64,000 nt of DNA from Caldilineaceae bacterium (lineage in GTDB: Bacteria; Chloroflexota; Anaerolineae; Caldilineales; Caldilineaceae). Shown one piece after another: positions 1,339 to 11,130 of the stretch. The notes under the pieces were generated by a model. It did no database searches. It was not told the origin of the DNA and worked only from the letters and a program-made list of their open reading frames with translations. The DNA is taken from the NCBI GenBank assembly GCA_022824025.1, contig JAJEBF010000033.1, positions 64,001 to 128,000 of the forward strand, read 5' to 3'. The stretch's first letter is position 1. Each line of letters starts with the position of its first letter. The translations under genes were made by a program, and so were the position numbers.

Positions 1339-2808
1339 ATGCAACTAAGAAGAACGCTATCTTTTGTTGTGATGGTGTCGCTGATGTTCTCTGCTGCGGT
1401 TGCTTTGCTGCCCGCAGAGAGGGCCGCAGCAGGTGATTGGCCGACAATGGAGTCGAGCCACGGGGGAGACGAAGAGGATCACGGGCACGATGCTGTCGCG
1501 TTCGTGGTACGGATAGAAAACATATCCGGCGACAGTGAATTGGCGACGCCGTTTGCGCCGGGCGTCTGGGTGCTGCACAGCGAACCGGGCCCGTTGTTTG
1601 TCGAGGGTGAGGCGGACAAGGGCTACGGGCTGGAGGCGCTGGCAGAGGACGGCAACCCGGCGGCGCTGGCCGAAGCGCTGAACGGGATGGGTCTGCATGC
1701 TGGCGTTTTCAATACGCCGGTGGGGGCAGAAGGACCTGGGCCGCTGCTGCCTGGCGGGGCCTACGAGTTTGAGGTAAAGGTCACGCACGAGGCTCCGTAT
1801 CTATCCTTCGCGACGATGTTTGTGCAGTCGAACGACCTTTTCGTTGGTCCTGGCGAAAACGGCATTGCCCTCATCGACATGGACGGAATGGCCATGGAGG
1901 GCATGCAGGACGTGACTGCCGAACTGCTGCTGTGGGATGCGGGAACCGAGGCGAATGAGGAGCCGGGCGTAGGCGGCGATCAGGCCCCCCGCCAGTCTGG
2001 CCCGAATATGGGTCTTCCTGAAATTGAGGGGACTGTGCGTGTTGTGGATGACGGCTATACGTATCCCGATGTTTCAGCCCTGGTGAAAGTCACCATCGAT
2101 AAAGCGATGATGATGGACGCGGGGATGGACGAGAAGATGGGCGAGAAGGACGAGATGATGTCGGACGATAAGATGATGTCCGACAAGGACGATATGATGG
2201 CGGGTGAAATCATGTTGTCGGAAGAAGGGTCTACGCCGTATACGGTGGTTGGCGGAGACACGCTGGGCTCGATAGCGCGGCGCGCCTATGGCAGCAGCAA
2301 GTACTGGTCGGCGATCTGCAGCGCCAACGGTTTGGCGAACTGCAATCTCATTCACATTGGCGATGAGCTGATGCTTCCCTCCCATGCGGATGCAATGGCC
2401 AAGATGGACAGCATGATGATGGGCGAGAAGGACGCCATGATGGGCGAGAAGGACGAGATGATGGCCGACAAGGATGACGCGATGGCCGAGAAGGACGAGA
2501 TGATGGCCGACAAGGACGGCATGATGGATGAGAAGGACGGCATGATGGCGGGCGAGATCATGTTGGCCGAAGATGCCTCTACGCCCTACACGGTGGTGGC
2601 CGGCGACACGCTTGGTTCCATTTCCAAGCGGGCGTATGGTACAATCGACTACTGGTCTGCCATCTGCAGCGCCAACGAGTTGGCGAACTGTGACTTGATC
2701 CATGTAGGAGATGCATTGTTGCTGCCCACGCAGGCTGAGGCCGAAAAGATGGGGAGCATGATGATGGACGACGGAATGGATGCAATGGAGAAGAAGGACG
2801 ATTCGTAA
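1339..2808 (+). CDS. Secreted spondin-domain protein with two LysM domains and Met/Asp/Lys-rich linkers
   Basis: 489 residues, with AAGGAGG just before the ATG. Residues 1-31 form a signal peptide ending in AERAAAG. A spondin_N-like domain follows (about 50-255, with VFNTPVG, MFVQSNDLFVGP and LWDAGTEANEEPG). Then come two copies of one unit: a low-complexity MM/KD/EKD linker (about 257-295 and 353-410), the shared stretch MMAGEIML, and a LysM domain (about 300-350 and 414-468; YTVV.GDTLGS, YWSAICSAN, IH.GD.L.LP). LysM domains bind glycan chains, so the protein probably sits on the cell surface. The methionine-rich linkers could bind metal, but that is only inference. A strong terminator follows, so it seems to be monocistronic. 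Confidence 0.85.
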   Translation: MQLRRTLSFVVMVSLMFSAAVALLPAERAAAGDWPTMESSHGGDEEDHGHDAVAFVVRIENISGDSELATPFAPGVWVLHSEPGPLFVEGEADKGYGLEALAEDGNPAALAEALNGMGLHAGVFNTPVGAEGPGPLLPGGAYEFEVKVTHEAPYLSFATMFVQSNDLFVGPGENGIALIDMDGMAMEGMQDVTAELLLWDAGTEANEEPGVGGDQAPRQSGPNMGLPEIEGTVRVVDDGYTYPDVSALVKVTIDKAMMMDAGMDEKMGEKDEMMSDDKMMSDKDDMMAGEIMLSEEGSTPYTVVGGDTLGSIARRAYGSSKYWSAICSANGLANCNLIHIGDELMLPSHADAMAKMDSMMMGEKDAMMGEKDEMMADKDDAMAEKDEMMADKDGMMDEKDGMMAGEIMLAEDASTPYTVVAGDTLGSISKRAYGTIDYWSAICSANELANCDLIHVGDALLLPTQAEAEKMGSMMMDDGMDAMEKKDDS

Positions 2809-3956: not shown

Positions 3957-6218
3957 ATGGGAAAACCCAAGCAGACCGCGGCCAGGGGCGCATTGCCGCC
4001 TGAAGAGCTGATTCTTCAGGCGAATACACTTTATTTGACCGGGCCATTCGGGGCAGGCAAGACGACGGCCGCGATTGAGAGGATAAAGTGGCTGTTGGGC
4101 CAGGAACGCGTGCGGGGCGACCGGATATTGGTATTGGTTCCTCAGCGGACGCTGGGCAAGCCGTACGAGGAGGCGTTGCGAAGTTCTGAAGTTCCTGCGG
4201 GAGGATTGCCTCGGGTGACGACGACGGCCTCTCTTGCCCGTGCAAGTGTGGCGCTGTACTGGCCGCTGGCGGCGCGCGAAGGGGGCTTTGTCGAGCCGGG
4301 CAAGGAACCGACCTTTCTCAATCTGGAGACGACGCAGTACCACATGGACGCGCTGGTGGAGGCGGCGATTCAGCAGGGCGAGTTTGACGCTGTCCGGCTG
4401 CAGAGAGGGCGCATTGTCAGCCAGATTCTCGACAATCTGAACAAAGCTGCGCTGCATGGTTTCACGATTGGGGAGGCCTACGCGCGGTTGGAGAGCACGG
4501 CGCCGCCGGGTGAGAAGAGAACGGCGCGGCTGAATGTTCTGGGAACAGCCCGCCGCATCAGCGAGGCGTTCCGGCAACTGTGTTTGCAGGAGTCGCTGGT
4601 TGACTACAGCCTCCAGATGCAAGTCTTTTTGCAGGTAGTCTTGGAGAACGAATGGTGCCGGACCCATCTGTTCCGCAGCTATCGCCACCTGATATTTGAC
4701 AATGCGGAGGAGGAAACCTTCGCGGCGCAGGAGCTGGCGCGGCGCTGGATTCCCCATCTGGACAGCGCTCTTATCGTGGTGGATGAGGACGGCGGTTACC
4801 GGGCCTTTTTGGGTGCGGACCCGGATGGCGCGCAGAAGTTGGCCGGCTGTACGGCGCTGCGCTGGCGAATGGGTGATTCGCTTGTGATGGCGAAGGGCGG
4901 TTCGGGGGTTGTTGGCCGCATAAACCGGGCGTATGGGCGGGCTGAGGACGGAGACGGGCAGGAGGGGCGCGCAGACGGGGCCGGTACGGACCTGGCGGAT
5001 GGCGCCCCATTGGTATTTCCCGATGGTTCGCACAGGTTTTTCCCGCAGATGATCGACTGGGCGGTGGATGAGATCGGGCGGCTGGTGAATGTTGAAGGGG
5101 CGCCGCCAGGCGAGATTGTGGTGCTGGCCCCGTTTATGAGCGACGCTCTGCGGTTCAGTTTGCTGAGCCGATTGGAGGAGAAAGAGATCCCTGCGACCAG
5201 CCACAGACCGAGCCGGGCGTTGAAGGCGGAGCCGGCGGCGCGGACGCTGTTGACGTTGGCGGCGTTGGCGCATCCGGCGTGGCAGCGGCGGCCGCCGCGT
5301 GCGGACGTGGCGCTGACACTTGAGAGCGCAGTTGCGCAGCTGGATGCCGTGCGCGCCAGTGTTCTGGCGCAGGCGGCGTATGATGAGCGGGGCCGCGCGG
5401 GCGGAGATCTGCGGACTTTCGATGGATTGCGCGGGGACGTGCAGAGGCGCGTTACGTTCGCGATCGGAGAGCGGTACGAGCAACTGCGCGCGTGGCTGGC
5501 CGATTACCGGGCCGAAAGCGAATTTTCGCCGTTGGACCGATTCTTTGCGCGTATATTTGGTGAGTTGCTCAGCCAGCCGGGGTTCGGTTTCCACGAAAGG
5601 GCGGACTCTGCGCGCATGGCTGACCGGCTTGCTCGGTCGGCGCGCGAGTTTCGGTGGGCCGCAACTGGACTGGGGCTCGCCGACGAGGGGACCACGCGGG
5701 GCGGCGGCGATCGCGGCTCCTTGATGCCGCCGGACGAGGATACTGCCGGACCGGCGCCATCCCGACAGATAGAAATTGGCCGGGACTACATTGCCCTGGT
5801 GGAAAGCGGCGCGCTGGGGGCGCTGCACGCGCCGGCGTGGACGGCGGAGGATGAGGCGGTGTTCATCGCTCCGGCATACACGTTCCTGATGCGGAACAGG
5901 GCGGTGGATGTGCAGTTCTGGCTCGATATAGGGGCGGAAGGGTGGGGGAGGCGTATCTACCAGCCGCTGACCCATCCCTATGTGCTTTCTCGGAACTGGC
6001 CGAAAGACAGGAGCTGGGGTGACGGAGACGAGGTACGAAGCAGGCAGGAGAGCCTGCGCAGACTGTCAGTTGGTTTGCTACGCCGGGCGCGGCGCAAGGT
6101 GTACCTGGGGCTGAGTGATTATAGTGAGAGAGGCATGGAACAGCGGGGACCTCTTCTGAATTTGCTGAACCGGGTTCAAGCGCAGGCGGGGGATGGAACT
6201 GCAGTGGACAGTGGCTAG
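3957..6218 (+). CDS. UvrD/AddB-like P-loop protein, putative DNA helicase
   Basis: 753 residues. A Walker A motif GPFGAGKTT sits at about residues 29-37. A possible Walker B, HLIFDNAEEE, is at about 242-251 with Asn between the acidic residues instead of the usual DExQ. The general plan (an early P-loop, LVLVPQRTL as in motif Ia, a long helical middle, EIVVLAPF as in helicase domain 2) resembles UvrD/REP or AddB proteins, but no nuclease motif or iron-sulphur cysteines are visible. It may act in DNA repair or recombination. It stands alone, with gaps of 184 bp before and 369 bp after. The helicase call is moderate, because the motifs beyond Walker A are degenerate. Confidence 0.6.
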   Translation: MGKPKQTAARGALPPEELILQANTLYLTGPFGAGKTTAAIERIKWLLGQERVRGDRILVLVPQRTLGKPYEEALRSSEVPAGGLPRVTTTASLARASVALYWPLAAREGGFVEPGKEPTFLNLETTQYHMDALVEAAIQQGEFDAVRLQRGRIVSQILDNLNKAALHGFTIGEAYARLESTAPPGEKRTARLNVLGTARRISEAFRQLCLQESLVDYSLQMQVFLQVVLENEWCRTHLFRSYRHLIFDNAEEETFAAQELARRWIPHLDSALIVVDEDGGYRAFLGADPDGAQKLAGCTALRWRMGDSLVMAKGGSGVVGRINRAYGRAEDGDGQEGRADGAGTDLADGAPLVFPDGSHRFFPQMIDWAVDEIGRLVNVEGAPPGEIVVLAPFMSDALRFSLLSRLEEKEIPATSHRPSRALKAEPAARTLLTLAALAHPAWQRRPPRADVALTLESAVAQLDAVRASVLAQAAYDERGRAGGDLRTFDGLRGDVQRRVTFAIGERYEQLRAWLADYRAESEFSPLDRFFARIFGELLSQPGFGFHERADSARMADRLARSAREFRWAATGLGLADEGTTRGGGDRGSLMPPDEDTAGPAPSRQIEIGRDYIALVESGALGALHAPAWTAEDEAVFIAPAYTFLMRNRAVDVQFWLDIGAEGWGRRIYQPLTHPYVLSRNWPKDRSWGDGDEVRSRQESLRRLSVGLLRRARRKVYLGLSDYSERGMEQRGPLLNLLNRVQAQAGDGTAVDSG

Positions 6219-6587
6219 TGGTAGGCGGGACGGGAAGGCGCCGCGGGGCGGGCAGAATGCGGGCGGGTTGCGGGCCAGCTTTGGGGAATTTGACCGAATG
6301 CTGGGACCAGAGGGTCCGGAAAGTCCCAGGTTTGGGCTGCACCCTAATTTTGCAGGTATTTGCTGAAGAATGTTTCCCTGTATTACAATGTTTTGGCCTT
6401 CGCGCTTGTGCCCAACCTTCCCCGGTTGCAAGAGGCGATAATAGGTTAGAAATTTCACTGGCGAGGCGTATCGGACCGGCAGGGGCGATTGTTCGGCGTA
6501 GATCGTTTCCGCGAGCAATGATTGCATCTACGAAAAAGTTGATCCGGCGTCCTCCACACCTTTTTTCACTGACAGTTACAGAGAACC
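6219..6587 (+). other. Intergenic region, 369 bp, possible weak promoter
   Basis: No convincing gene is seen. TTGCTG at 6360-6365 and TACAAT at 6384-6389, spaced 18 bp, could be a promoter for the following gene with a leader of about 190 nt. Otherwise nothing recognisable is present. Confidence 0.3.
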
Positions 6588-9500
6588 GTGAGTAGCGAAT
6601 TCATTTTTGGCATCCACGATACAGGCGGCGAAGAGCATCTGCGCGCGGCCAGGAAGACGGGTTGGGTCGTGTTCAGCGAGGTGGTGGGTCACGATCCGAA
6701 CGATCTGGCGGGCAAAGACTACAGTTCGTTCAGCCGCTATGGTTTGGGGGTGATTGTTTGCCTGAACAACGGCTATTTTCCCCAGGGCACGTTGCCCCTG
6801 AGCAGCGAATACTCCAATTTTGCCCGCCGGTGCGCGAATTTCGTGCGTGCGAGCGAAGGATGCAGCCGGTGGGTCATTGGCAACGAGATGAACTATTCAG
6901 TCGGGCGGCCCAGCACAGCGGAGGGGCTTGCCTTGCGCAAGCACGTTGGCGACGCGCGGTCAAGCGACCCCACGCTGCGCAGTTTGCCGGAGCGGTTCAG
7001 CGCGCTGCTCAGTGCGGCCGACAGGGCGGCGGCGAACGAGGCGGCCGAAGGCGAGGAGTTGATTACGCCACAGCTCTACGCAAACTGTTATCGGATCTGC
7101 CGGGAGGCGATCCACGGGCTCGAGGGCCATGAAGAGGATCAGGTGTTGATCGGGGCGGTGGCGCCGTGGAATGCGCAGACGGTGTATCCGGGCAACCCGA
7201 ACGGCGACTGGATCAAGTATTTCCAGGACATTTTGCTGCAATGCGGCGCGAGCGGCTGTGATGGAATCACGCTGCACACGTTTACGCACGGGGCGAACCC
7301 GACGCTGATTTTGGACAACAGCAAGCTGCCGGACTATCCCAGGCATCATTGTCACTTTCAGGCATACCGGGACTTCATGCATGCGATTCCGGTGAATATG
7401 CGCCGTCTGCCGGTATATATTACCGAGACTGACCAAGGGGGGCCGTGGGAAAACGTGAACCGGGGCTGGATCCAGGCGGCCTATGCTGAGATTGATCGCT
7501 GGAACCGTCAGAACTCGCAGAAGATTCAGGCGATGGCGCTGTACCGCTGGCCGCAGCTGGATCGGTGGCACATCAGCGGAAAGGAAGGCGTCATCGAGGA
7601 TTTTCGCGTTGCGTTGCGGCACGACTATCGCTGGAACATCGAGGCTGAGCAGAGCCAGGCGGAGGGGGAGGCAGAGAGACGGGCGGACCGGCGTGAAAAA
7701 CGGCGGGGGGCCAGGGCGGTGCCGGGCTGGCAAGAGGAGGACGTTACGGAAGAGATGAAGATGGGCCGGGGCATGGTATACCGGGTGCAGTGGATGAAGG
7801 GCAAGCCCCCCAGCCCGCTTTACCCTGGCCAGCGGGTCGTTTTCCCTGTGACAGTCCGAAACACGGGAACGATTGCCTGGCCGGCAGAGGGTCCACAACA
7901 GATAGCGCTCGGCTATCATTTTTTCCAGAACCGGAAAGAGTTGCCGTTTCCTGACGACCGGCCGGTGCTTACGAAACTGACACAGGACGTAGGGCCGGGC
8001 GAAACGGTCACTTTTGACGCGCAGCTGGTCATTCCCGACCAGCCGGGGAACTACACGCTGGTCCTGGATCTGGTTCGGGGCGGCGAAACCTGGTTTCAGG
8101 AGATGCAGTCGGACATTTTGACACGGTGGCTGAATGTGAGTGAAGGTCAGCCGCCGGAGGACGAGGCAGGACGAGGCGCGGGGCCAGAGGCGGACGCTGG
8201 CGTCGCAGCGGGTAGGACGGCTGAAGCGGCGCCGCCGCCAGAGACGATTCCCCCTGTGCCGGTGAGAAGGGAAACACGTTCTGCCGCGGCGCCCCATGGT
8301 CCGGCGGTCGTGGATATTGCCTCGTCGCTGCCGCGCGGGGAAAACCCCTTTGCGCTGCGCACCGTTGATCAGATAAGGCGGCTGGTGATATGTCACACCT
8401 CGGCCCCCGCGGGCGTGCCGATTCAGACGATTGCGCAGGCTCATATTTCGCAGGGGTACCCTGGGATCGCCTATCACTACTTTGTGCTGGAGTCGGGAGA
8501 GATCCTTCAGGCGGCCCCGGTTGAAGGAGTGGTCAATGATGAGGCGGAGTGGAGCCTGACCGGGGTGAACATTTGCCTGGAAGGAAATTTTGACGAGGAT
8601 GTTCCGAAGCCGGCTCAGTTGACGGCTACGGCGCGGTTGTGCGCCTGGATGCTTCCTCGCTTCCAGTTGACCGCGCAGAATGTGGTTGGCATGAGCGAGT
8701 TGCTGGAAACAGACAGCCCGGGTCGCACATTTGAGGATGGGCCTACGTGGAAGAGGACGCTTCACGAGAAGATCGTACAGTTGCTGACTGATTCGCCTTT
8801 GTCGCCGCCCGCTGAAGCGGTCGAGGGCGAGGCTCCGATCGGGCAAGATGAGGGGCGGCCCGCGGGAGGGCCCGAGCGGACGCCGGCTCCAAAGCCGCCC
8901 ATTGAGGATGTGGTGGCGCGGCTGCCGCGCGATCCGCAGAGAATTGTGCAGCGGACGGCAGGGGACGTGGAGTTCATCGTGATCAATCACACGGCGGCGC
9001 CGCCGATTACGCCGCTGCAGACGATCGCGGCGGCCTTTCACCGGCGGTTGCCAGGGATCCTCTACCAGTTTTTCATTGCATCGAATGGCGGCATTTACCA
9101 GACGCAACCGCTGCTGGAGGCGGTGGACGGAGAGGTTCCTTATATTGCGCGCGCGATCAACATTGGATTTGCCGGCGAATTCAATGATGAGATTCCGACT
9201 CCGGCGCAGATCAGTTCGGGGAGACAGTTGATCGCATGGCTGATGGAGGCGTTTCCGCAGTTGACGCTGGCCAGTATTCGCGGGGTGAACGAGTTCATCA
9301 ACCACACCTCCCCTGGTGAACAGTGGCTGCAGGGGCGGAGATGGAAGGACATTCTGATCGACGCAGTGCGGGGGGAAGACGACGGGCCTGCGGCTGCGGA
9401 CGGGTACGGCGCGGTTGTCGGAGAGCCCGGGGGGCAGGAACCGACGCGCTCGAGCGGCGTCCAGGGGCGCGGGCAAGGCAGCGAAGCGGGCCGGGTTAAG

Positions 9501-10385
9501 ACGGAGGAAGCGGATGCGGGTGCGCGGTCGGTGCGGGGCGAGCGGATCGTCCGGCCACAGATTCGGGATATCGGCCATGCGTTGCCCCGCCACCCAACTT
9601 TGGCGTACCGGCGGCGGCTCCTGGCAGGCATCACGCACATCGCCGTACATCATACGGCATTGCCGCCCCATGTGGGGCCGGAGCGCATCGCCCAGACCCA
9701 CGTGGAGGAGGATCCTGCGCGGGGGAAGAGAGCCTGGCCGGGCATTGGTTACCACTATTTCATTCCTGCTGACGGCGAGATATTGCAGACCCAGCCGGTG
9801 GAGGTTCGTTCTCACCATGTGGACAGGCACAATTCATACGCGATAGGCGTCGCGTTCGCGGGCAGCTTCATGAATGGCTCTACGCCGACGCCGCAGCAGA
9901 TTCACTCCGGCGCCCGGTTGATCGCGTGGCTGTTGCAGGAGTTTGAACTGCAGACAACCAACGTCCTGGGCCACAAGGAGTTTTCGCACAACGAGACGCC
10001 TTGCCCGGGAAGTGAGTGGCAGGAAGGAATGCAGTGGCGGCATACGTTGATTACGGAGATTGAGCGCGTCCAGAGCGGCGTCGCCCCTTACCATTATGTC
10101 CTGTTCCAGTCTGAGGATGAGATGACGGCGACGATGGAGGAGGCGCGCCCGTATTTCGACGCCTTCAAGCCGGTGGCGGGCACATTTCTGGAAGACGCGC
10201 TGCAGGCGCGCTATGTGACCCTGGTCGGGTCTGGGACGGGCCCGACGGCGGAAGCGGAGCGGCGATTGGGAGATGTCGGCGTGGAGTTTGATCGGCTGGA
10301 CGACTCTGCGGCGATCTCGGCGACTGAGCGATTTTTGCAGCTGGCGCACGACGGACGCCGCTTCCGAACGCTGTTAGAGCCGTAG
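6588..10385 (+). CDS. Multidomain glycoside-hydrolase-like / Ig-like / triple PGRP-amidase protein
   Basis: 1265 residues from a GTG start, with no signal peptide visible. Domains in order: a TIM-barrel like clan GH-A glycosidases (about 1-350) with acid/base candidate Glu100 in WVIGNEMN and nucleophile candidate Glu280 in YITETDQ; a charged linker; an Ig-like NBR1-type domain (about 395-510, VTVRNTGTIAWP); then three amidase_2/PGRP domains near 595-730, 790-925 and 1010-1160. Only the third keeps the full zinc set (VHHTA, HYF, GHKEF, CPG). The first reads GMSELL and DSPG, the second GVNEFI and TSPG, so both lack the second His and the Cys. The C-terminal ~100 residues are unassigned. It overlaps no gene, but scpA begins 4 bp after its stop. 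It probably acts on peptidoglycan or other glycans. How it leaves the cell is unclear. Confidence 0.8.
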   Translation: MSSEFIFGIHDTGGEEHLRAARKTGWVVFSEVVGHDPNDLAGKDYSSFSRYGLGVIVCLNNGYFPQGTLPLSSEYSNFARRCANFVRASEGCSRWVIGNEMNYSVGRPSTAEGLALRKHVGDARSSDPTLRSLPERFSALLSAADRAAANEAAEGEELITPQLYANCYRICREAIHGLEGHEEDQVLIGAVAPWNAQTVYPGNPNGDWIKYFQDILLQCGASGCDGITLHTFTHGANPTLILDNSKLPDYPRHHCHFQAYRDFMHAIPVNMRRLPVYITETDQGGPWENVNRGWIQAAYAEIDRWNRQNSQKIQAMALYRWPQLDRWHISGKEGVIEDFRVALRHDYRWNIEAEQSQAEGEAERRADRREKRRGARAVPGWQEEDVTEEMKMGRGMVYRVQWMKGKPPSPLYPGQRVVFPVTVRNTGTIAWPAEGPQQIALGYHFFQNRKELPFPDDRPVLTKLTQDVGPGETVTFDAQLVIPDQPGNYTLVLDLVRGGETWFQEMQSDILTRWLNVSEGQPPEDEAGRGAGPEADAGVAAGRTAEAAPPPETIPPVPVRRETRSAAAPHGPAVVDIASSLPRGENPFALRTVDQIRRLVICHTSAPAGVPIQTIAQAHISQGYPGIAYHYFVLESGEILQAAPVEGVVNDEAEWSLTGVNICLEGNFDEDVPKPAQLTATARLCAWMLPRFQLTAQNVVGMSELLETDSPGRTFEDGPTWKRTLHEKIVQLLTDSPLSPPAEAVEGEAPIGQDEGRPAGGPERTPAPKPPIEDVVARLPRDPQRIVQRTAGDVEFIVINHTAAPPITPLQTIAAAFHRRLPGILYQFFIASNGGIYQTQPLLEAVDGEVPYIARAINIGFAGEFNDEIPTPAQISSGRQLIAWLMEAFPQLTLASIRGVNEFINHTSPGEQWLQGRRWKDILIDAVRGEDDGPAAADGYGAVVGEPGGQEPTRSSGVQGRGQGSEAGRVKTEEADAGARSVRGERIVRPQIRDIGHALPRHPTLAYRRRLLAGITHIAVHHTALPPHVGPERIAQTHVEEDPARGKRAWPGIGYHYFIPADGEILQTQPVEVRSHHVDRHNSYAIGVAFAGSFMNGSTPTPQQIHSGARLIAWLLQEFELQTTNVLGHKEFSHNETPCPGSEWQEGMQWRHTLITEIERVQSGVAPYHYVLFQSEDEMTATMEEARPYFDAFKPVAGTFLEDALQARYVTLVGSGTGPTAEAERRLGDVGVEFDRLDDSAAISATERFLQLAHDGRRFRTLLEP

Positions 10386-10389
10386 GGGC

Positions 10390-11130
10390 ATGGAAACAAC
10401 GCTTAACCCCTTAGGCGCCGGATACCCGGTCAGCCTTCCGGTTTTCGATGGCCCGATCGGGCTACTGCTCCATCTGATTGAACGCGAGGAACTGGATATT
10501 ACGGACGTGTCGCTGGTGGCGATTACGGACCAGTATCTGCGTGCGATTGAGTCGATGCGGGAGATCGAGCCGGAGGCGCTGACAGACTTTCTGGTTGTTG
10601 CGGCCCGCCTACTCTACATCAAGAGCCGCATGCTGTTGCCGCAGCCTGATGAGGAGGAAGAGGAGGAGGATCAGGGCGAGGCTTTGGTCCAGCAGTTGCT
10701 GGACTATCGCCGGTACAGAGAGGCGGCGGGCGAGTTGCGCCTGCGGGCGTCGATCGGGATGCGGACAGCTGCACGCGTGGCTCCGCCGCAGCTGGAGCGG
10801 CGGATGGACCTTTCGGCGTTGACGATCGAGGGGCTGGCGGCGGCGGCGCGCAAGGCGCTGCTGGCGTTGCCCGACAGCCCGGCGGCGCCGACCGTGCGCG
10901 CCTATGCGATTACGGTTGCGGAGCGAATCGAGGCGATACGAGAGCGCATCCGGAGCCAGGCGAACGGACGTGGGCGACGGCTGGCTTTTTCAGGACTCTT
11001 GTCTGAAAGCCGGAGCAGATTGGAGATCGTGGTTACGTTTCTGGCGGTATTGGAGTTGGTAAAACGGCGCGAGATCGCGGCGGAACAGGAGGAGACTTTC
11101 GGCGAGATTATGCTGCGCCGCGTGGGTTAG
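10390..11130 (+). CDS. scpA: Segregation and condensation protein A
   Basis: 246 residues, the usual length for ScpA, the kleisin subunit that bridges the heads of the SMC dimer in chromosome condensation. The N-terminal signature is clear: FDGPIGLLLHLIEREELDITDVSLVAITDQYL, then FLVVAARLLYIKSRMLLP, an acidic run of Glu/Asp (about 90-97), a helical middle, and the C-terminal winged helix with VTFLAVLELVKRREI. It starts 4 bp after the stop of the large PGRP protein with no strong ribosome site of its own, which suggests translational coupling. scpB is usually next in other bacteria but is not here, since a strong hairpin and a convergent gene follow. Confidence 0.95.
   Translation: METTLNPLGAGYPVSLPVFDGPIGLLLHLIEREELDITDVSLVAITDQYLRAIESMREIEPEALTDFLVVAARLLYIKSRMLLPQPDEEEEEEDQGEALVQQLLDYRRYREAAGELRLRASIGMRTAARVAPPQLERRMDLSALTIEGLAAAARKALLALPDSPAAPTVRAYAITVAERIEAIRERIRSQANGRGRRLAFSGLLSESRSRLEIVVTFLAVLELVKRREIAAEQEETFGEIMLRRVG

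Follow-up and report, generated by a model that had tools for sequence, protein, structure and literature searches.

A gene on the forward strand of the window (the whole 64,000-nucleotide stretch of Caldilineaceae DNA analysed here) was found to encode a protein with three PGRP/Amidase_2 domains (D1, D2, and D3) in a single chain, of which only D3 possesses the zinc triad His/His/Cys (H/H/C), whereas D1 and D2 are well supported as pseudo-amidases. With moderate confidence, we read the product as a modular peptidoglycan amidase equipped with two pseudo-amidase binding modules. The open reading frame is real and its coordinates are exact, and the product of 1265 residues comprises, from the N- to the C-terminus, a clan GH-A-type barrel, an FW Ig-like domain, D1, D2, D3, and a C-terminal domain (Table 1).

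Table 1 Features of the PGRP-containing gene and its surroundings, in window positions.
Feature	Position	Strand	Remarks
TGA in frame, six codons ahead of the start	6570..6572	+	Closes the frame
Whole gene	6588..10385	+	1265 aa; GTG start, TAG stop; start region kept in close relatives
Clan GH-A-type (beta/alpha)8 glycosidase-like barrel, residues 1-349	6588..7634	+	AlphaFold2, Foldseek
Glu100, predicted acid/base (Asn99-Glu100, end of beta4)	6885..6887	+	Invariant in 43 sequences; DSSP of the model
Glu280, predicted nucleophile (end of beta7)	7425..7427	+	Invariant in 43 sequences
FW/N_BRCA1_IG Ig-like domain, residues 396-517	7773..8138	+	Pfam 27.1 bits (cut-off 28); Foldseek 4ole, 6vhi
D1, PGRP/Amidase_2 pseudo-amidase	8301..8792	+	Ligand positions C602, M702, S710; Tyr629 kept
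D2, PGRP/Amidase_2 pseudo-amidase	8895..9371	+	Ligand positions N800, V900, S908; Tyr826 kept
D3, PGRP/Amidase_2, zinc triad intact	9555..10076	+	H1021, H1129, C1139, with Tyr1055 and Thr1137
C-terminal alpha/beta domain (~95 aa), distantly CWB2-like	10089..10373	+	Profile comparison; below recognition by PF04122
scpA	10390..11130	+	Starts 4 nt after the stop of the window gene; conserved neighbour

The three PGRP/Amidase_2 domains that a preliminary description, made from the sequence alone, had placed in this one reading frame all scored above the Pfam cut-off of 26 bits for Amidase_2 (D3, 82.3; D1, 52.4; D2, 42.3 bits), and Pfam searches revealed no Amidase_2 domain besides these in the 5.0-Mb source genome, the completeness of which is estimated at 99.5%. 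Two AlphaFold2 models were built with family alignments, one for the barrel and the Ig domain (pLDDT 85) and one for D1–D2–D3–tail (pLDDT 78, pTM 0.41); because of the low pTM of the latter, the spatial arrangement of its domains is not predicted. In Foldseek searches, the D1–D2–D3–tail model matched Amidase_2 endolysins and PGRPs, which, together with the profile scores, bears out the earlier view that D1 and D2 retain the fold.

As had been proposed, the third PGRP copy alone carries an intact zinc site. In D1 and D2, all three ligands are lost (C/M/S and N/V/S, respectively), with the fold profile still recognized. The preliminary description had the second His and the Cys missing from both domains, which proved right, but it had counted two losses where there are three; the first ligand is gone as well, and the His remaining in the V-x-H-T sequence of both domains is the adjacent one, which is not a ligand. 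Ligand one was assigned to the leading His in the V-H-H-T motif on the basis of the alignment to D3 and of what is known for T7 lysozyme. The HMMER local alignment to LysC shifts the V-H-H-T motif by one residue in both D3 and D1, and the family alignment was used. Moreover, the class alignments contained no conserved set of His, Cys, or Asp at the site that could supply alternative zinc ligands in D1 and D2, in agreement with their earlier description as lacking zinc ligands; a candidate in D2, the His that immediately precedes the position of the lost Cys, was discarded, as it is not kept across the wider class. From its H/H/C site, D3 is predicted to be an amidase of the PGRP/T7-lysozyme type, for which cleavage at MurNAc-L-Ala would be expected from family chemistry. 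Its assignment as AmpD was rejected on an NCBIfam equivalog score of 20.7 bits versus the cut-off of 143 bits.

A scan of a genome collection yielded 42 loci; full-length homologues were present in Caldilineaceae as well as in other Chloroflexota, and, at E ≤ 1e-20, a PGRP-tail profile matched 119 of 298 Anaerolineae genomes. Domain mapping revealed a recurrent order in these relatives, namely, the barrel, FW, one to three PGRPs, and the C-terminal domain. In one MAG (locus L016), the homologous gene is split across two reading frames, through either an assembly error or a real frameshift. The PGRP copies were compared among 65 distinct Anaerolineae proteins with the tail, many of which come from one genus and are hence not independent. 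The last copy has H/H/C in 63 of the 65 proteins (including L066 and L083, in which H, H, and CPG were seen on inspection), whereas neither the second His nor the Cys is kept in any of 100 upstream copies, 92 of which have Ser at the place of Cys; the first His is retained in some upstream copies (H/L/S, H/A/S, and H/R/S). This difference between upstream and last copies means that the degeneration of D1 and D2 is more than chance, and the conservation of the degenerate sites in homologues, which the preliminary description had put forward for checking, thus extends class-wide. In L029 (7521–10100; also in L110) and L111, the last or only PGRP is itself degenerate (S/K/S, N/Y/S), showing that some relatives work without an intact amidase triad, a point that counts against the modular amidase reading.

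In a quick domain tree, with SH-aLRT as its only support and many open forks, the last copies are placed apart from most of the first and middle ones, which lie together; among the Caldilineaceae relatives, the first copies constitute one supported group and the middle copies another. Degenerate copies elsewhere in the tree belong to a few families (L070/L102, L072/L107, L108/L109, and L111), and this scattering indicates that the loss probably occurred more than once. Median dN/dS values among 16 close relatives, estimated by the Nei–Gojobori method, were 0.088 (barrel), 0.097 (FW), 0.100 (D1), 0.060 (D2), 0.077 (D3), and 0.132 (tail), as compared with 0.35–0.80 for linkers of the same protein; as these come from simple counting with dS partly saturated, their ranking is more reliable than the values. 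D1 and D2 are under purifying selection similar to that on D3, and from these low ratios it follows that the inactive copies are maintained. Judged from the sequences, the loss of the metal site in D1 and D2 is ancient and maintained.

A precedent for such domains is provided by Drosophila PGRP-LB, in which both His residues and the Cys are conserved in catalytic PGRPs only, whereas a Tyr is invariant in both kinds (PMC8124813). The H42A, H152A, and C160S mutations of PGRP-LB reduced or abolished the activity, depending on the substrate, with retention of peptidoglycan binding, and the C160S protein was without zinc (PMC8124813). By the same distinction (PMC8124813), D1 and D2 belong with the non-catalytic PGRPs, having lost the ligands and kept the fold and the Tyr; the Tyr is present in both D1 and D2 of the window protein, though not in every relative. 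The type of change in D1 and D2 is the same as in the PGRP-LB mutants, which are single mutations as opposed to the triple loss here, and peptidoglycan binding by D1 and D2 is thus likely by analogy, with residual activity being possible. The earlier suggestion that D1 and D2 became binding modules is therefore strengthened, as an argument from analogy, by the class-wide degenerate state, the purifying selection, the retained Tyr, and the PGRP-LB mutants.

The fold of D1–D3 is common to the animal PGRPs PGRP-LC, -LE, -SA, PGLYRP1, and PGRP-LB. The non-catalytic ones (PGRP-LC, -LE, -SA, and PGLYRP1) have lost the zinc ligands in the manner of D1 and D2, including the change of Cys to Ser, and the amidase PGRP-LB has the same triad as D3. 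In contrast to animal PGRPs, the present protein is bacterial, holds three copies per chain together with a glycosidase-like barrel, FW, and the tail, and has no signal peptide. The best PDB matches by both sequence and structure are Amidase_2 endolysins (LysC, 6srt/6ssc; Ts2631, 6fhg; and T7 lysozyme), which resemble D3 in site and fold and are signal-less like the window protein. Unlike these, the window gene is chromosomal, syntenic, and class-wide, and the phage records among the matches listed cover 10–13% of the protein with ~30% identity. Since these listed phage matches are limited to the Amidase_2 domain and the locus is syntenic, a phage or prophage endolysin was ruled out. Multidomain autolysins of Firmicutes likewise combine a catalytic domain with repeated binding modules on one chain, but in the present protein the modules presumed to bind are degenerate copies of its own catalytic domain, and a signal peptide is absent.

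The glycosidase-like barrel of the preliminary description was substantiated by the AlphaFold2 model, a (beta/alpha)8 fold with pLDDT > 90 over most of its length that matched GH158, GH39, GH26, and GH1 in Foldseek. Asn99-Glu100 and Glu280, invariant in 43/43 aligned sequences and located by the model and DSSP at the ends of beta4 and beta7, form the arrangement by which clan GH-A is defined. The barrel thus shares the fold, the Asn-Glu at beta4, and the Glu at beta7 with GH158, GH39, and GH26, but differs from them in having ~8–15% identity in structural alignment and no sequence-level family; searches of the window barrel against Pfam and PDB sequences gave no family match (GH158, GH39, GH26, and GH128 included), and the barrel of relative L029 reached 19.8 bits for PF11790 (cut-off, 21 bits). 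In other relatives the same barrel is fused to SH3 and M23 (L022 and L028), C39 and SH3 (L034), or F5/8C domains (L033), and these fusions point to the cell envelope.

A second barrel gene lies directly upstream in L022 (4442–7840), L026 (4936–7971), L019, L021, L023, and L024; it encodes a barrel, repeated SH3-like domains, and an M23 peptidase, without a signal peptide, and is a tandem paralogue bearing another type of wall hydrolase. In L034–L044 (Thermoflexales, Roseilinea, and others), the barrel is C-terminal in proteins that lack a signal, contain C39-like and SH3_3 domains, and have an N-terminus that appears lytic-transglycosylase-like by eye, and in L033 (7959–10838) it is followed by three FW and two F5/8 type C domains, with no signal peptide seen.

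The Ig-like domain, also named in the preliminary description, fell slightly short of the Pfam cut-off for N_BRCA1_IG, but its AlphaFold2 model matched the FW domains of NBR1 and ILRUN, and the N_BRCA1_IG domain of relative L033 scored above the cut-off (78 bits). A conserved C-terminal domain had been overlooked earlier; it matches no Pfam family. Its profile matched the CWB2 proteins Cwp8 and SlpH of C. difficile at E 4e-7 to 2e-6 for whole sequences, though only at E ~0.003–0.01 for single stretches. Pfam CW_binding_2 (PF04122) gave no match to the tail in its own genome at E 1 and none above the cut-off in 249 genomes. The tail was therefore not taken as a CWB2 member and is called CWB2-like; in addition to being below recognition by Pfam CW_binding_2, it differs from the CWB2 domains of Cwp8 and SlpH in being present as a single copy. 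In L130–L141, the tail domain ends signal-less proteins of ~420–630 aa that have no PGRP and carry other N-terminal regions, resembling glycosidase barrels.

No Sec/Tat signal was recognizable in the window protein or in relatives with a readable start, and no segment reached membrane-span hydrophobicity among the relatives inspected. A signal peptide gained from an upstream start, the caveat attached to its reported absence, was dismissed, because the in-frame TGA precludes an N-terminal extension and the relatives start at the same place, at the barrel. The barrel begins within ~10 residues of the protein start, as in relatives; close relatives have the start region in common, and in more distant ones the start can lie no more than ~10 residues from the barrel. 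A lipoprotein-like leader was noted in a Myxococcales protein with a related barrel. Sec is in normal use in the organism, as seen from the clear Sec signal peptide of a LysM/spondin protein (window 1339–2808), a conserved neighbour in the genus, and the five transpeptidase-domain proteins encoded in the genome imply that peptidoglycan is present. Peptidoglycan synthesis genes are also carried by sponge Caldilineae (PMC6306507). Release by lysis or non-classical export of the protein is possible.

The window-type gene is immediately followed by scpA at 55 of the 65 distinct loci, and the adjacency persists where its other neighbours were not found nearby. Seen from the scpA side, 10 of 30 Anaerolineae loci picked solely on the scpA score have a gene of this kind ahead of scpA; scpB is located on another contig. 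The window gene and scpA are probably co-transcribed. Upstream in the window (3957–6218), a 753-aa P-loop protein that falls in no Pfam family and faintly matches GajB/UvrD helicase is possibly an AddB-like nuclease-helicase subunit. A PADLOC search gave no match for the window protein, and a role in defence or as a toxin was discarded; the toxin suggested earlier finds no support in a syntenic locus and a gene spread across the class.

In the mechanism that we propose, D3 would bind Zn through H1021, H1129, and C1139 and, following family chemistry, cut the MurNAc-L-Ala bond. D1 and D2, ancient copies of the same fold with the metal site lost, would be kept as non-catalytic modules gripping the stem peptides of peptidoglycan, conferring avidity and placing D3 on the wall. 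The barrel, its catalytic pair intact in the alignment and model, probably cuts a wall or envelope glycan, and FW and the CWB2-like tail may serve as adhesion or assembly modules. With no Sec/Tat signal, the protein would be delivered to the wall along a signal-independent route or upon membrane breach, like phage endolysins, which is the weakest step of the proposal.

The signal-less nature of the protein and its relatives and the operon-like position beside the cytosolic scpA would also suit cytosolic recycling or sensing, with imported muropeptides captured by D1 and D2, freed of their peptide by D3, and trimmed in their sugar part by the barrel. The same superfamily includes AmpD, a cytosolic amidase likewise devoid of a signal. 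We consider cytosolic recycling or sensing rather unlikely, given the AmpD equivalog score far below its cut-off, the fusion of the same barrel in relatives to the polymer-directed M23, C39, SH3, and F5/8C domains, and a long, multi-copy, FW- and CWB2-like architecture that soluble fragments do not need. A bolder version, an Anaerolineae-wide cytosolic reader that senses peptidoglycan fragments through its pseudo-amidase PGRP modules and ties the wall state to chromosome condensation via the scpA operon, as a counterpart of animal PGRP receptors, appears very improbable.

Alternatively, D1 and D2 might have lost peptidoglycan binding and taken on protein partners (one another, ScpA/SMC, or some other protein), much as T7 lysozyme of the same fold binds T7 RNA polymerase, a structure (1aro) found among the structural matches. 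The conserved scpA neighbour and the coiled-coil-like spacers that separate the PGRPs of some relatives (e.g., L020) would agree with such a role, which we nevertheless hold to be improbable, as the site type of D1 and D2 resembles that of recognition PGRPs. It is scarcely credible that they are decaying relics or mere spacers; their missing catalytic site would fit, but dN/dS values of 0.10 and 0.06 versus 0.35–0.80 in real linkers contradict it, as do a fold and a position kept across many families of the class.

Multidomain wall hydrolases are known; as far as our searches reach, the combination of active and ancient inactive PGRPs in one signal-less bacterial chain beside scpA is new. Literature searches on Anaerolineae PGRPs or scpA operons returned nothing relevant and no description of this protein family. 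Collectively, the modular amidase reading suggests that bacteria, like animals, made peptidoglycan amidases into non-catalytic modules, anciently and consistently within one class. The active and inactive copies within one chain provide a natural test of the change of a PGRP from enzyme to binder, and they raise the questions of how class-wide, signal-less proteins resembling wall hydrolases reach the wall and why their genes adjoin scpA.
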